Assembly (NCBI GenBank): GCA_005881175.1
Contig: VBEN01000017.1
Location: 1-38,153, forward strand
Length of the DNA stretch: 38,153 bases
From: Chloroflexota bacterium
Lineage (GTDB): Bacteria; Chloroflexota; Dormibacteria; CF-121
Direction: 5' to 3'
The translations under genes were made by a program, and so were the position numbers. The notes below the pieces were generated by a model, which was not told the DNA's origin, did no database searches, and saw only the letters and a list, made by a program, of their open reading frames with translations. Shown one piece after another: positions 11,990 to 16,160 of this stretch (position 1 is its first letter; the number at the start of each line of letters is the position of its first letter).

Positions 11990-12217
11990 ATGCGAGCGTA
12001 CGTCCTTATCAATGCGTCGGCGGGTAAAGCTATCGAGGTTGCCAGGTCGCTTCAGGGGGTCAAGGGCATCGAACTGGCGGACGCGATCACCGGGGAATAC
12101 GACGTCATCGCCGCGGTGGAGGCTCCCGACGTCGCCGGCATCGGCTCGATCATCGTGGAGAAGATCCAGAAGATCGACGGCGTCTTCAAGACGGTCACCT
12201 GCCTGGCGGTTCGCTAG
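11990..12217 (+). CDS. Lrp/AsnC ligand-binding (RAM) domain protein without DNA-binding domain
   Basis: 75 residues forming one RAM/ACT-like beta-alpha-beta-beta-alpha-beta unit: MRAYVLINASAGKA, VARSLQGVKGI, ADAITGEYDVIAAVEAPDV, GSIIVEKIQKIDGV, TVTCLAV. The GEYDVIA core and the IDGV..T end are typical of the stand-alone SMB (small RAM) proteins, which bind amino acids and oligomerise without a helix-turn-helix. A strong Shine-Dalgarno (aggaggg) lies 4-5 nt upstream. Divergent location from tdh-kbl suggests, but does not show, an amino-acid-sensing link. Its TAG overlaps the stop of the convergent PPOX gene within a shared CTAG. Confidence 0.9.
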   Translation: MRAYVLINASAGKAIEVARSLQGVKGIELADAITGEYDVIAAVEAPDVAGIGSIIVEKIQKIDGVFKTVTCLAVR

Positions 12218-12621
12218 CGCAGCTGGCCGTAGGCGCGGTCGACGGAGATCGACAGCAGGAGGCGCTGCTCGTTGACCATGGCCGCGTCGTATTCTGCCCA
12301 GTTTGGGTGCTCGCCGCGGACTTTGCGGTAATAGTGCCGCAAGGCTTCCGCCAGGCCCTCCCCCTCGACGAGCTGGGCGGCTCCCTCGGCGACCAGGTAC
12401 TCGTAACGGTCGCGCCCCTGGACATGGAGACTGGCCCGCGGGTCGCGGCGGAGGTTGAGCGTTTTCGCCCTTGTCTGTGTGGCCGAGATTTTGATTCGGC
12501 CGTCGTCGTCGAGGAAGTAGAGGATGTTCGAGAGTTGCGGCCGCCCGTCACGCTTGATGGTGGCGAGGATGCCGTCGTGCCGCACCCTGAGGAAGTGATG
12601 GGCGCGATCGAGATCGGTCAT
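12214..12621 (-). CDS. PPOX-class, probably F420-dependent, flavin/deazaflavin oxidoreductase
   Basis: Split-barrel FMN-binding fold of the Rv1155-like PPOX class. Visible landmarks are an N-terminal helix followed by HDGILATIKRDGRPQLSNI, then FLDDDGRIKISATQTRAKTLN, NLRRDPRASLHV, and EYLVAEGAAQLVEGE, ending with a short helix. The pattern matches TIGR03618-type proteins that use F420 or FMN. The substrate cannot be predicted. The longer frame starts at a TTG (12630); I prefer the ATG at 12621, which gives MTDLDRAHHFL. It lies downstream of the lysine-rich microprotein on the same strand, separated by a stable hairpin. Confidence 0.88.
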   Translation of the reverse strand: MTDLDRAHHFLRVRHDGILATIKRDGRPQLSNILYFLDDDGRIKISATQTRAKTLNLRRDPRASLHVQGRDRYEYLVAEGAAQLVEGEGLAEALRHYYRKVRGEHPNWAEYDAAMVNEQRLLLSISVDRAYGQLR

Positions 12622-12636
12622 GCCCACCAATGCTAC

Positions 12637-12660
12637 AGCCGGCGCCCGAAGGCACCGGCT
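12637..12660 (-). terminator. Strand-specific C(UUCG)G tetraloop hairpin upstream of the PPOX gene
   Basis: On the minus strand AGCCGGTGCC-TTCG-GGCGCCGGCT forms a 10-bp stem with one U.G wobble and the very stable cUUCGg tetraloop. On the plus strand the same position would be a C.A mismatch with a CGAA loop. The structure is therefore built for a minus-strand RNA. No U-run follows, so it may be a weak terminator, processing site or 3'-end stabiliser for the lysine-rich gene upstream. A second small hairpin (AGCTC/GAGCT) sits at 12674-12686. Confidence 0.5.
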
Positions 12661-12688
12661 GTATTTTGAAGTCAGCTCAAAGAGCTAA

Positions 12689-12754
12689 CTACTTCTTCTT
12701 CGACGACTTCTTCGCAGCTTTCTTCTTTCCGCCTGCTTTCTTCTTTGCGGCCAT
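12689..12754 (-). CDS. Lysine-rich 21-residue microprotein
   Basis: ATG at 12754, TAG at 12689. The composition is 12 Lys, 4 Ala, 2 Gly, 2 Ser plus the initiator Met, arranged as lysine triplets and pairs (MAAKKKAGG..., ...SSKKK). Immediately upstream on the minus strand is AAGGAGGTGA (12771-12762), a full-length match to the 16S rRNA anti-Shine-Dalgarno, 7 nt from the ATG. That is the strongest ribosome binding site seen in the window and the best argument that this tiny frame is translated. The sequence resembles histone-H1-like or nucleoid-associated lysine-rich tails, so nucleic-acid binding is a reasonable inference. Function is otherwise unknown. Confidence 0.6.
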   Translation of the reverse strand: MAAKKKAGGKKKAAKKSSKKK

Positions 12755-13167
12755 CCGGGGCTCACCTCCTTCTTAGTCAGATTCTCCCGGTCGGCCGCTT
12801 GTACGCCGCCGCCGAACGCGCGTGAGCGCCACGGGTGCCGTGGACGCGCGGGCGCCGACGAGGCCGGGTACCGGAAGCAAAGAGGAAAAAGAAAAACGAG
12901 GGGACCGACGGCTGGTCGCGATCGACCCTCGGAGTCCGCGATCCCACGCGATGGTCACCATCGACATGGACCTCGGAAATTTGTGAGTGTTGCCCTTCTT
13001 CAGCTCCTCGCCCTGATCGCTTCGACGATGATCAGAGCGCGGCTCAGCGCTCATTAACTGCGACCATAGCATGAATTGCGTCGCTTTGCACAGTCGCCGG
13101 ACCAAAAATTTCGCGAGGGCGGCAGTGATGAGGCTCAGCGCGGGCCGATCAGCAGAATTTTCGCGGA
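12755..13167 (-). other. Intergenic stretch with candidate structured transcript
   Basis: About 410 bp without a convincing gene; the open frames in it have no homology-like features. On the minus strand a TATGGT hexamer (13068-13063) is followed by two adjacent hairpins: 13052-13035 (GAGCGC/GCGCTC) and 13034-13014 (TGATC/GATCA). Then comes a compound GC-rich stem (12937-12902), then CGTTTTTCTTTTT. This could be a small RNA of about 180 nt, or the 5' leader of the lysine-rich microprotein gene, whose strong ribosome binding site lies at its end. It does not match RNase P, tmRNA, SRP or 6S RNA signatures that I know. Confidence 0.3.
12884..12937 (-). terminator. Candidate intrinsic terminator
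   Basis: On the minus strand a stem GGAC(TC)CGA...TCGGTCC encloses a second hairpin (GGTCG-ATCG-CGACC). It is followed by CCCTCG and a T-rich run of TTTTTCTTTTT (12896-12886). It would end a short transcript initiated near 13060. There is a 6-nt gap between stem and T-run, which weakens the call. Confidence 0.4.
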
Positions 13168-13308
13168 TCAAGGGCAACGACCGCCGTCACAGCAGGTTTC
13201 GTAATAGAGGCCGCATCCTCGACAACGAAATTTGCGTCCGTCCCAGTCCGTCGGGCCTCCGCAAGGACATTCCGGACCGTCGTGCGACCACGATGGATGC
13301 ATTTGCAT
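13168..13308 (-). CDS. Cys-rich mini-protein (zinc-ribbon-like), unknown function
   Basis: 44-46 residues. The frame starts at ATG 13308 or, more likely, ATG 13302, which gives a GAGG Shine-Dalgarno at 9-nt spacing and the N-terminus MHPSWSHDG. The second half carries seven cysteines as CPCGG, then FRCRGCGLYY, then ETCCDGGRCP, consistent with one zinc ribbon plus an extra Cys cluster at the end. It lies directly downstream of nrdJ on the same strand (53 bp between), whose own C-terminus is also a zinc-ribbon-like Cys motif. Longer upstream in-frame codons have no support. The function is unknown; a metal-binding accessory protein is inference. Confidence 0.6.
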   Translation of the reverse strand: MQMHPSWSHDGPECPCGGPTDWDGRKFRCRGCGLYYETCCDGGRCP

Positions 13309-13326
13309 CGTCCTCGACGGTCGAGA

Positions 13327-13351
13327 GGAAGAGGCTACGCGCACCTCTTCC
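13327..13351 (-). terminator. Hairpin after nrdJ
   Basis: GGAAGAGG and its exact complement CCTCTTCC (8 bp, 9-nt loop) begin about 10 nt after the nrdJ stop. No U-tract follows, so termination would be partial, with readthrough into the Cys-rich mini-protein gene. Confidence 0.45.
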
Positions 13352-13361
13352 TGGTTATTGC

Positions 13362-16160
13362 TTAGGAGCAGCCGCTCGTGCTGCCGCAGTTGAGGCACTT
13401 GTAGCAGGTGCCGTTGCGAATCATGATCGAGCCACAGTCGGAGCAGGCCGGGGCGTCCTCCTGGCCTTGAAAACTGATCTTGATCGCGCTGGATTCGACG
13501 GTCGTGGGCTTTGCCGGCGTGACGGGAGTTGCCGGCGAAGTCTCAACCTCGACGATTGGCTCTCGGCGGACGATGCCGATCGCCTCTTGCTGCGTCCCGC
13601 TGAGGAATTTCGAGGCGAGCCAGCGGAAGATGTAGTCGGTGATGGACTTGGCGATCGGGATTTCAGGGTTCTTCGTGAAGCCCGACGGCTCGAAGCGGGT
13701 ATGCGCGAATTTCTTGACCAGCACTTCCAGCGGAACCCCGTACTGGAGTGCCAGTGAGATGCTCGTCGCGAAAGCATCCATCAGGCCGGAGATCGTGCTG
13801 CCTTCCTTTGACATGACCAGGAAGATCTCGCCGGGCGTTCCGTCCTCGTAGATGCCAACCGTGATGTAGCCCTCGTGACCCTGGATATCGAACTTGTGAG
13901 TGATCGCCCGGCGCTCGTCGGGCAGCTTGCGGCGCACGGCCCGGGCCGGCTCGCTCGGCGCGACATCCCTGGTCGAAGAGACCTGAGCGATCGCGCTCTT
14001 CTTGCTGTCCAGCGCCGTGTTCAGCGGCTGGGAACGCTTGGAGCCATCGCGGTAGATGGCGATTGCCTTGAGGCCCATCCGCCACCCTTCCAGATAGACC
14101 TCCATGATGTCCTCCGTAGTCGCCAGCTCGGGCATGTTGACCGTCTTGGAGATGGCGCCGGAGATGAACGGCTGGGCTGCGGCCATCATCTTGACGTGGC
14201 CCATATAGTGGATCGTCCGCGAGCCCTTGGCCGGCTTGAAGGCGCAGTCGAACACCGCCAGGTCATCGGTACGCAGGTGCGGGGCCCCCTCGATCGTGTC
14301 GTTCTCATCGATGTACTGGAGGATCTCCGAGACCTGGGGCTCGGGATAGCCCAGGCGCCGCAAGGCGATCGGGACGGTCTGGTTCACGATCTTCAGCATG
14401 CCGCCGCCGACCAGCTTCTTGTACTTGACCAGAGCGATGTCAGGCTCGATCCCGGTGGTATCGCAGTCCATCATGAAGCCGATCGTCCCGGTGGGCGCGA
14501 TCACGGTCGCCTGCGAGTTGCGGTATCCATAGAGGTCCCCCAGCTGGCAGGCCTTGTCCCAGGCGTCCCGCGCGGCGCTCAGCAGCGGCAGCGGAACATG
14601 CGCCGGGTTGATGTGGTCGACGGAGCGTCGGTGCTGGTCCATGACCCGCAGCATCGGCTCGCGGTTGATCGCAAAGCCGTGGAATGGTCCCTTCTTCTGG
14701 GCGATGCGAGCCGATTGGGCATAGGCCTCGCCGGTCATCATTGCGGTGAGCGCCGCGGCCACGTCGCGGCCGGCGTCGCTATCGTAGGGCAGGCCTGACG
14801 CCATCAGCAGCGCGCCCAGGTTGGCATAGCCGAGCCCGAGCGGCCGGAAGTCGCGGCTATTCTGGGTGATCGCCTCCGTCGGGTAGCTGGCGTTGTCGAC
14901 GAGGATCTCCTGGGCGGTGATCAAGATCCGGCACGCTTCCCGATAGGCCTCGACGTCGAACTCGCCGCGCTCGTCCAGGAACTTCATCAGGTTGATCGAG
15001 GCGAGGTTGCAGGAGGTGTTATCGAGGAACATGTACTCGGAACACGGGTTGGATGCGTTGATCCGGTCCGTGTTCGGGCAGGTATGCCAGTGGTTGACCG
15101 TGGTGTCGTACTGCAGCCCCGGATCGCCGCATGCCCAGGCCGCCTCCGCCATCATGCGCATCAGGTCGCGAGCCTTGTAGGTGTCCATGATCTGGCCCGA
15201 CGTGATGGCGAAGGTATGCCACTCGCCATCCTCTTCCACTGCCTTCATGAAGTCGTCTTTGACCCGGACACTGTTGTTGGAGTTCTGGAAGAAGATCGAG
15301 CTGTAGGCCGGGCCGTTGAAGGACGGGTCGTACCCACCCTCGATCAGCGTCCACGCCTTGCGCTCCTCCTCGACCTTGCAGTTGATGAACTCGACGATGT
15401 CGGGATGGTCGGCGTTGAGGATCACCATCTTGGCCGCCCGTCGCGTCTTGCCGCCGGATTTGATCACGCCGGCGAAGGCGTCGAAGCCCTTCATGAAGGA
15501 GACGGGGCCGGATGCCGTGCCGCCGCCCGCGAGGAGCTCACGCGAGGAACGAAGTGGCGAGAGGTTCGTGCCGGTGCCCGAGCCGTACTTGAAGAGCATC
15601 CCCTCGGTCTTGGCCAGGGTGAGGATCGACTCCATCCTGTCCTCGACTTTGTTGATAAAGCAAGCTGAAAGCTGAGGGCGCTGTTCGATACCGGCGTTGA
15701 ACCAGACCGGGCTGTTGAAGGCAGCTTTCTGGTGCACCAGCAAATGGGTCAGCTCGTCACGGAAGATTTCCGACGCTTCGGGGGTCGCGAAATACCCCTG
15801 CTTGTTGGCCCACCCATGGATGGTGCGAACCACGCGCCCGATCAATTGCTTGACGCTGCGCTCGCGCTCGGGCGTCCCGAGCACCCCACGGAAATACTTC
15901 GAAACCACTACATTCGTGGCGACCTGCGACCAGGTGGTCGGGATCTCGACGTCATGTTGTTCGAAGACGACCTCACCCTTCTCATTGGTGATGCTGGCCT
16001 CGCGCGTCTCCCATTGGACCTCGTCGAATGGGGCCACGCCGGGACGGGTGAAGTAGCGCTTCCAGGGAAGCCCGTTGCGGTTGCGTTTGGGCGTATTGCT
16101 CGGAGCCGCCGCAATCAAGTTGGGTCGGTCAGTCGAAGTCTTCTGGGTGGATCGGGCCAT
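13362..16160 (-). CDS. nrdJ: Vitamin B12-dependent (class II) ribonucleoside-diphosphate reductase
   Basis: Adenosylcobalamin-dependent reduction of ribonucleotides to deoxyribonucleotides. 932 residues, within the 850-1200 range of bacterial NrdJ. The N-terminal third contains the substrate/effector loops. NPCSEYMFLDNTSCNLASIN carries the conserved finger-loop Cys and Glu of the catalytic barrel. The later APTGTIGFMMDCDTTGIEP segment is diagnostic for this class. The C-terminal tail is a ribbon of Cys motifs (CSDCGS, CYKCLNCG, GCS) used to re-reduce the active site or bind zinc. The start ATG at 16160 has the ggagg Shine-Dalgarno upstream. A textbook promoter (TTGACA-17-TACGAT) and two NrdR-like boxes precede it. 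I looked for a B12 riboswitch in the 5' leader and saw none. Confidence 0.97.
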   Translation of the reverse strand: MARSTQKTSTDRPNLIAAAPSNTPKRNRNGLPWKRYFTRPGVAPFDEVQWETREASITNEKGEVVFEQHDVEIPTTWSQVATNVVVSKYFRGVLGTPERERSVKQLIGRVVRTIHGWANKQGYFATPEASEIFRDELTHLLVHQKAAFNSPVWFNAGIEQRPQLSACFINKVEDRMESILTLAKTEGMLFKYGSGTGTNLSPLRSSRELLAGGGTASGPVSFMKGFDAFAGVIKSGGKTRRAAKMVILNADHPDIVEFINCKVEEERKAWTLIEGGYDPSFNGPAYSSIFFQNSNNSVRVKDDFMKAVEEDGEWHTFAITSGQIMDTYKARDLMRMMAEAAWACGDPGLQYDTTVNHWHTCPNTDRINASNPCSEYMFLDNTSCNLASINLMKFLDERGEFDVEAYREACRILITAQEILVDNASYPTEAITQNSRDFRPLGLGYANLGALLMASGLPYDSDAGRDVAAALTAMMTGEAYAQSARIAQKKGPFHGFAINREPMLRVMDQHRRSVDHINPAHVPLPLLSAARDAWDKACQLGDLYGYRNSQATVIAPTGTIGFMMDCDTTGIEPDIALVKYKKLVGGGMLKIVNQTVPIALRRLGYPEPQVSEILQYIDENDTIEGAPHLRTDDLAVFDCAFKPAKGSRTIHYMGHVKMMAAAQPFISGAISKTVNMPELATTEDIMEVYLEGWRMGLKAIAIYRDGSKRSQPLNTALDSKKSAIAQVSSTRDVAPSEPARAVRRKLPDERRAITHKFDIQGHEGYITVGIYEDGTPGEIFLVMSKEGSTISGLMDAFATSISLALQYGVPLEVLVKKFAHTRFEPSGFTKNPEIPIAKSITDYIFRWLASKFLSGTQQEAIGIVRREPIVEVETSPATPVTPAKPTTVESSAIKISFQGQEDAPACSDCGSIMIRNGTCYKCLNCGSTSGCS

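Follow-up and report, generated by a model that had tools for sequence, protein, structure and literature searches.

Lysine-rich basic tails are already known. PhaF of Pseudomonas, Hc1 of Chlamydia and the tail of mycobacterial HupB are all lysine-rich and histone H1-like, and among the very short basic proteins the ribosomal microproteins such as bTHX and bL37 have a defined, arginine-containing sequence and an rRNA site. AlgP (PMC9239181) and Hc2 (PMC2848022) have likewise been described as lysine-rich H1-like proteins; KPAA-repeat peptides of AlgP bind DNA in vitro and the protein localises to polyP granules (PMC9239181). Here we describe a gene of only 21 codons plus stop, lying in a 38,153-nt (38-kb) stretch of DNA from a Chloroflexota bacterium (the window), whose product consists of little but lysine and small residues.

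Results

An initial annotation of the window had proposed a 21-residue lysine-rich microprotein behind a perfect Shine-Dalgarno sequence at 7-nt spacing. The ORF was found as proposed, starting with an ATG at 12754 and running on the minus strand to a TAG stop that ends at 12689. The span given for it, 12689-12771, takes in the ribosome binding site as well as the ORF, and its lysines number 11 among 21 residues instead of the 12 that had been counted.

12689-12754, minus strand: microORF of 21 aa, MAAKKKAGGKKKAAKKSSKKK, and its TAG stop; present in 18/18 family genomes, with synonymous-biased variation
12762-12771, minus strand: Shine-Dalgarno sequence AAGGAGGTGA, 7 nt before the ATG; none of its 10 bases varies across the family alignment
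12214-12621, minus strand: gene for a TIGR03618 F420-dependent PPOX-class oxidoreductase, flanking the microORF downstream

The ribosome site had been singled out as the strongest in the window, and AAGGAGGTGA has no second exact copy there; in the 2.88-Mb genome the pattern AAGGAGGTGA-N7-ATG occurred exactly twice, and its reversed control 0 times. As had been predicted, the gene was missed by ordinary annotation. Its product falls under the usual size cut-offs, and low-complexity filters conceal it from homology searches.

The corresponding loci of relatives were found using the neighbouring PPOX-type gene as an anchor. The same microORF lay upstream of this gene in each of the genus's 14 other genomes and again in three more genera of the family (f1), and microORF, locus and ribosome site were all shared by the 18 family genomes, which represent four genera. 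The order of genes from the ribonucleotide reductase gene to threonine dehydrogenase/KBL was kept in the 5/5 genomes checked (four genera). Presence at the same locus in related genomes, together with a conserved length, ribosome site and lysine pattern, was the support that the initial annotation had asked of relatives, and all of it was found in this family.

The peptide was identical in 13 of the 14 other genus genomes, and in the remaining one AS replaced AGG. A GTG start was the sole difference from MAAKKKAGGKKKAAKKSSKKK in two of the three other genera, and the third showed A2P and K21R besides the GTG start. Variable sites in the family ORF were distributed over codon positions 1, 2 and 3 as 1, 1 and 8 (8/10 at position 3), and in four orthologous sets as 3, 1 and 20 (20/24; binomial P = 7e-7), so that the peptide sequence, and not the RNA alone, is under selection. 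The synonymous changes were in Ala, Gly and Ser codons, and conservation across the four genera was not confined to the lysines. Codons 3-5 were invariant and Ala and Gly codons further on varied, which fits an extra RNA constraint at the start of the ORF, although AAG is in any case the usual lysine codon of these genes. Judged on the sequences compared, the microORF is a real, lysine-rich and translated-looking gene.

Three further elements were recognised around the ORF.

12756-12883, minus strand: GC-rich, foldable and conserved leader, with a predicted hairpin CGCGCGTCCACGG..CGTGGCGCTCACGCGCG and a predicted hairpin GCGGCCGACCGGG..CCCGGATGGCCGC
12634-12663, minus strand: stable GC hairpin TACAGCCGGTGCCTTCGGGCGCCGGCTGTA, separated from the stop codon by about 25 nt; it resembles a terminator but its T tract is poor
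13063-13068, minus strand: possible -10 element TATGGT, proposed by sequence inspection only; it lies within the conserved string ATTCATGCTATGGTCGC, some 300 nt ahead of the start codon

The final ~125 nt upstream of the start codon were conserved far above the remaining intergenic DNA, and length changes in the leader were restricted to predicted loops or unpaired stretches. In the predicted consensus fold the Shine-Dalgarno sequence is placed in the loop of hairpin GCGGCCGACCGGG..CCCGGATGGCCGC and the start codon in its stem, an arrangement that suggests regulated translation. The stretch from leader to downstream hairpin folded better than 200/200 shuffles in the window (fold z-score -4) and better than 198/200 in a relative (G017). 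There was almost no covariation in the leader because its sequence hardly varies, and its structure is therefore a prediction. The GC hairpin 3' of the stop codon was present in all family members and stronger than 95% of shuffles. The candidate -10 string ATTCATGCTATGGTCGC was conserved across the genus, and a scan of both strands of the window for the sigma-70 consensus gave no match.

In Rfam, the window stretch gave only a sub-threshold match to sX6 and 11 relative loci gave nothing above the gathering threshold; a known cis-regulatory or small RNA was discarded, since no family reached the gathering score. The matches of a covariance model of the leader (R1) were confined to the f1 family. 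A Myxococcales locus (L067) matching the pattern of leader and ribosome site was without a lysine-rich ORF and was taken as a chance match. A mobile-element origin was also rejected, given that no plasmid or phage match was obtained and that the leader pattern was absent from viral contigs.

The upstream-leader unit was tandemly duplicated in one genome (G002:C14:76713-77600; L009 and L113), where the extra leader copy joins the tail of an upstream Cys-rich small ORF at the microhomology GGATGGCCGCAAA and hence has no lysine ORF. In the window this Cys-rich ORF (13168-13398, minus strand; 76 aa by its first start) sits between the ribonucleotide reductase gene and the microORF unit; it has zinc-ribbon-like cysteines, 33-79% identity in the relatives checked and no Pfam match.

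Pattern searches for lysine-rich microORFs behind AGGAGG sites were run over Chloroflexi genomes. Within the same class they were found in 32 of 42 genomes of family f3, and in another class in 27/28 sampled genomes of f32 and in 1/1 of f45, with near-zero counts for the reversed-pattern controls. The 54 distinct peptides, comprising MAAKKKAGGKKKAAKKSSKKK and about 50 further ones (for example MMAKKKAAKKPAKKAAKKTSKKK, MAAKKKAVKKAVKKAVKKATKKKK, MPAKKKAKKSSKKKH, MPKKKKAAKKKH and VAAKKKSKKGGKKK), were 12-27 aa long and made up of 56% K and 27% A, the rest being mainly Ser, Pro, Thr, Val and Gly; they had no D or E and, bar rare His, no aromatic residues. The resemblance to a free histone-tail-like peptide that had been noticed in the window fits the composition of MAAKKKAGGKKKAAKKSSKKK and these relatives. 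That such peptides recur in several Chloroflexi families goes beyond the initial annotation, as do the conserved leader and the terminator-like hairpin. The microORFs of the other families sat behind ribosome sites as strong as that of the MAAKKKAGGKKKAAKKSSKKK gene, and some genomes carried two copies, sometimes in tandem.

The microORF loci differed between families and had no common downstream gene. In f32 the neighbouring genes were ECF sigma/anti-sigma-like and endonuclease III-like, or the microORF followed a uracil-DNA-glycosylase-like gene; in f3 it lay between alpha/beta-hydrolase-like and FAD-oxidase-like genes (neighbour names were read off the translations, with no profile scan). 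Within ~110 nt downstream, all f1 and f3 copies and 72% of the f32/f45 copies had a hairpin that outdid 95% of its shuffles, so that the copies look monocistronic; a T tract was common at these hairpins. Many f32 copies had TTGACA boxes ~55-65 nt ahead of the start codon, and f32 was the only family among the relatives with clear boxes of this kind. Paralogous f3 copies at unrelated loci had a common leader motif. At several f3 loci (e.g. L157, L196 and L205) the terminator hairpin downstream of the microORF kept an arm and the loop, CCGGGGTTCTGTGGAGCCCCGG, nearly unchanged. After the first hairpin, f32/f45 loci (e.g. L129, L131 and L137) had a second conserved element, CACCTTTCGCGAAC, followed by the hairpin CCGATCCGCG..CGCGGATCGG and a T tract; this second element may be a small RNA or may belong to the unit that follows.

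No copy was detected by these patterns in f2 and f4, both of the same class, or in ten f3 genomes, and the function is therefore not universal. Ribosomal-protein-like N-termini, presumably of S11, also fit a looser lysine pattern and were set aside, as were other matches without a short lysine-rich ORF. We propose that the lysine-rich mini-genes of these soil-Chloroflexi families are of the same kind, and make no claim of one ancestry, because the sequences are too low in complexity to tell homology from convergence.

Replacement of HU by the peptide was considered as a rule and rejected, since it fits the class of the window but fails in the second class, HU presence complementing the peptide inconsistently. 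In the first class, the sampled f3 genomes were without HU and most had the peptide, f2 and f4 had HU and no peptide, and f1 mostly had a divergent HU-like protein together with the peptide. In the second class, f32 and f45 carried both, and families f11, f21 and f30 had neither. The anticorrelation in the first class goes back to a small number of independent events and does not hold generally. The HU tails were inspected, and a clean swap of a tail for the microprotein was not found. The HU-like protein encoded at G000:C97:18123-18383 (L256) is highly divergent (E about 1e-8 to PF00216) and was present in nearly all f1 genomes.

Discussion

The reading that we prefer, with a probability of roughly 0.6, is that the gene encodes a free-standing, strongly translated, polycationic and 'histone-tail-like' microprotein that binds polyanions. 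High translation is inferred from the ribosome site; disorder, polyanion binding and the ligand are inferred too, the ligand from charge alone. The gene would be a self-contained unit, in which a possible promoter is followed by a 5' UTR of about 300 nt whose last ~125 nt form the conserved structured leader, then by the near-perfect ribosome binding site, the 21-codon ORF and the GC hairpin. Its product would be intrinsically disordered and would carry about 11 positive side chains, a polycation acting through electrostatic binding to polyanions. The most likely ligand would be nucleic acid (nucleoid DNA, or RNA or the ribosome surface), bound much as a histone H1-like tail would bind it if detached; polyphosphate is ranked second. 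The start codon, if held in the leader stem, would point to regulated translation. No match at E <= 1, to an HU/H1-like family or any other, came from the Pfam and NCBIfam profiles, which have little power on a low-complexity query of 21 aa.

More tentatively, the peptides of several Chloroflexi lineages might constitute a distinct class of counter-ion proteins that bind chromatin or RNA. They would be dedicated, free-standing polylysine microproteins of 12-27 aa, with a monocistronic mini-gene for each and a leader that sets the dose, possibly by autogenous control. Neither the lysine-rich microprotein nor recurrent free-standing lysine microproteins of 12-27 aa, each with a leader and a terminator-like hairpin of its own, were described in the literature searched, and to our knowledge such a recurrent class has no known description. 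If its signals are a guide to its expression, the MAAKKKAGGKKKAAKKSSKKK microprotein would rank with the smallest conserved proteins of bacteria and would be a natural, genome-encoded minimal 'histone tail' of little but lysine and small spacers. It would also offer a testable system for the dosing of a polycationic peptide by a structured mRNA leader.

A structural ribosomal microprotein like bTHX or bL37, filling an rRNA pocket, would likewise be small, very basic and served by a strong ribosome site, and the structured leader could be autogenously regulated. We consider this unlikely, as a fixed rRNA site would normally preserve a specific sequence, whereas here the length varies from 12 to 27 aa, the sequence is repeat-like, two different copies occur per genome in places and the distribution across families is patchy.

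It also seems improbable that the peptide is a polycation associated with polyphosphate or storage granules in the manner of AlgP/PhaF tails, since polyP or PHA genes were not seen in the neighbourhoods inspected. The composition does resemble that of KPAA-type tails, most clearly in f3 (AAKKPAAKKAAKK), and AlgP localises to polyP granules (PMC9239181).

In f1 the PPOX gene always follows directly, with a conserved stable hairpin in between, and the leader is predicted to be structured; the lysine-rich ORF could thus be a leader peptide that senses lysyl-tRNA or the ribosome state and controls the PPOX gene through the intervening hairpin. This is quite improbable in view of the conservation of all residues over four genera, and not of the lysines alone, with Ala, Gly and Ser codons changing synonymously. 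The f3 and f32 ORFs, moreover, are at different loci with terminator-like hairpins; no downstream gene was constant across lineages, the PPOX gene following only in f1, and PPOX genes of other families are without such an upstream ORF. The PPOX gene is probably outside the function of the microprotein.

That the structured RNA is the functional product and the ORF incidental is very improbable, because the third-position bias, the retained frame and stop codon, the perfect ribosome site and the recurrence of such ORFs with unrelated leaders weigh against it, in spite of a leader that folds strongly and is better conserved than other intergenic DNA and of the one tandem leader-unit copy without an ORF in G002.

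Under the preferred reading of a free polycation, the closest described systems are the histone H1-like tails and proteins (the KPAA tails of AlgP and PhaF in Pseudomonas, Hc1 and Hc2 of Chlamydia and the HupB tail of mycobacteria). They are Lys/Ala-rich with short spacers like the microprotein, which would share their disorder, and polyanion binding would be expected for both; the 54 peptides share the Lys/Ala(/Pro) richness, low complexity and absence of acidic residues that mark H1-like sequences. The H1-like systems, however, are either long proteins or tails attached to folded domains (AlgP has 352 aa and Hc2 165-237 aa), whereas in Chloroflexi 12-27 aa are the whole protein, served by a leader and a terminator-like hairpin of its own. 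The microprotein resembles bTHX, bL37 and bS22 in being very short, basic, free-standing and of a kind often missed by annotation, and differs from them in its low complexity, its variable length, its occurrence sometimes as two per genome and its lack of an HMM match. With attenuator leader peptides the microORF shares a tiny ORF, a structured mRNA and a hairpin after the stop codon; in contrast to them, its peptide is conserved beyond a regulatory codon, and the units of its relatives stand alone, with no common target gene.
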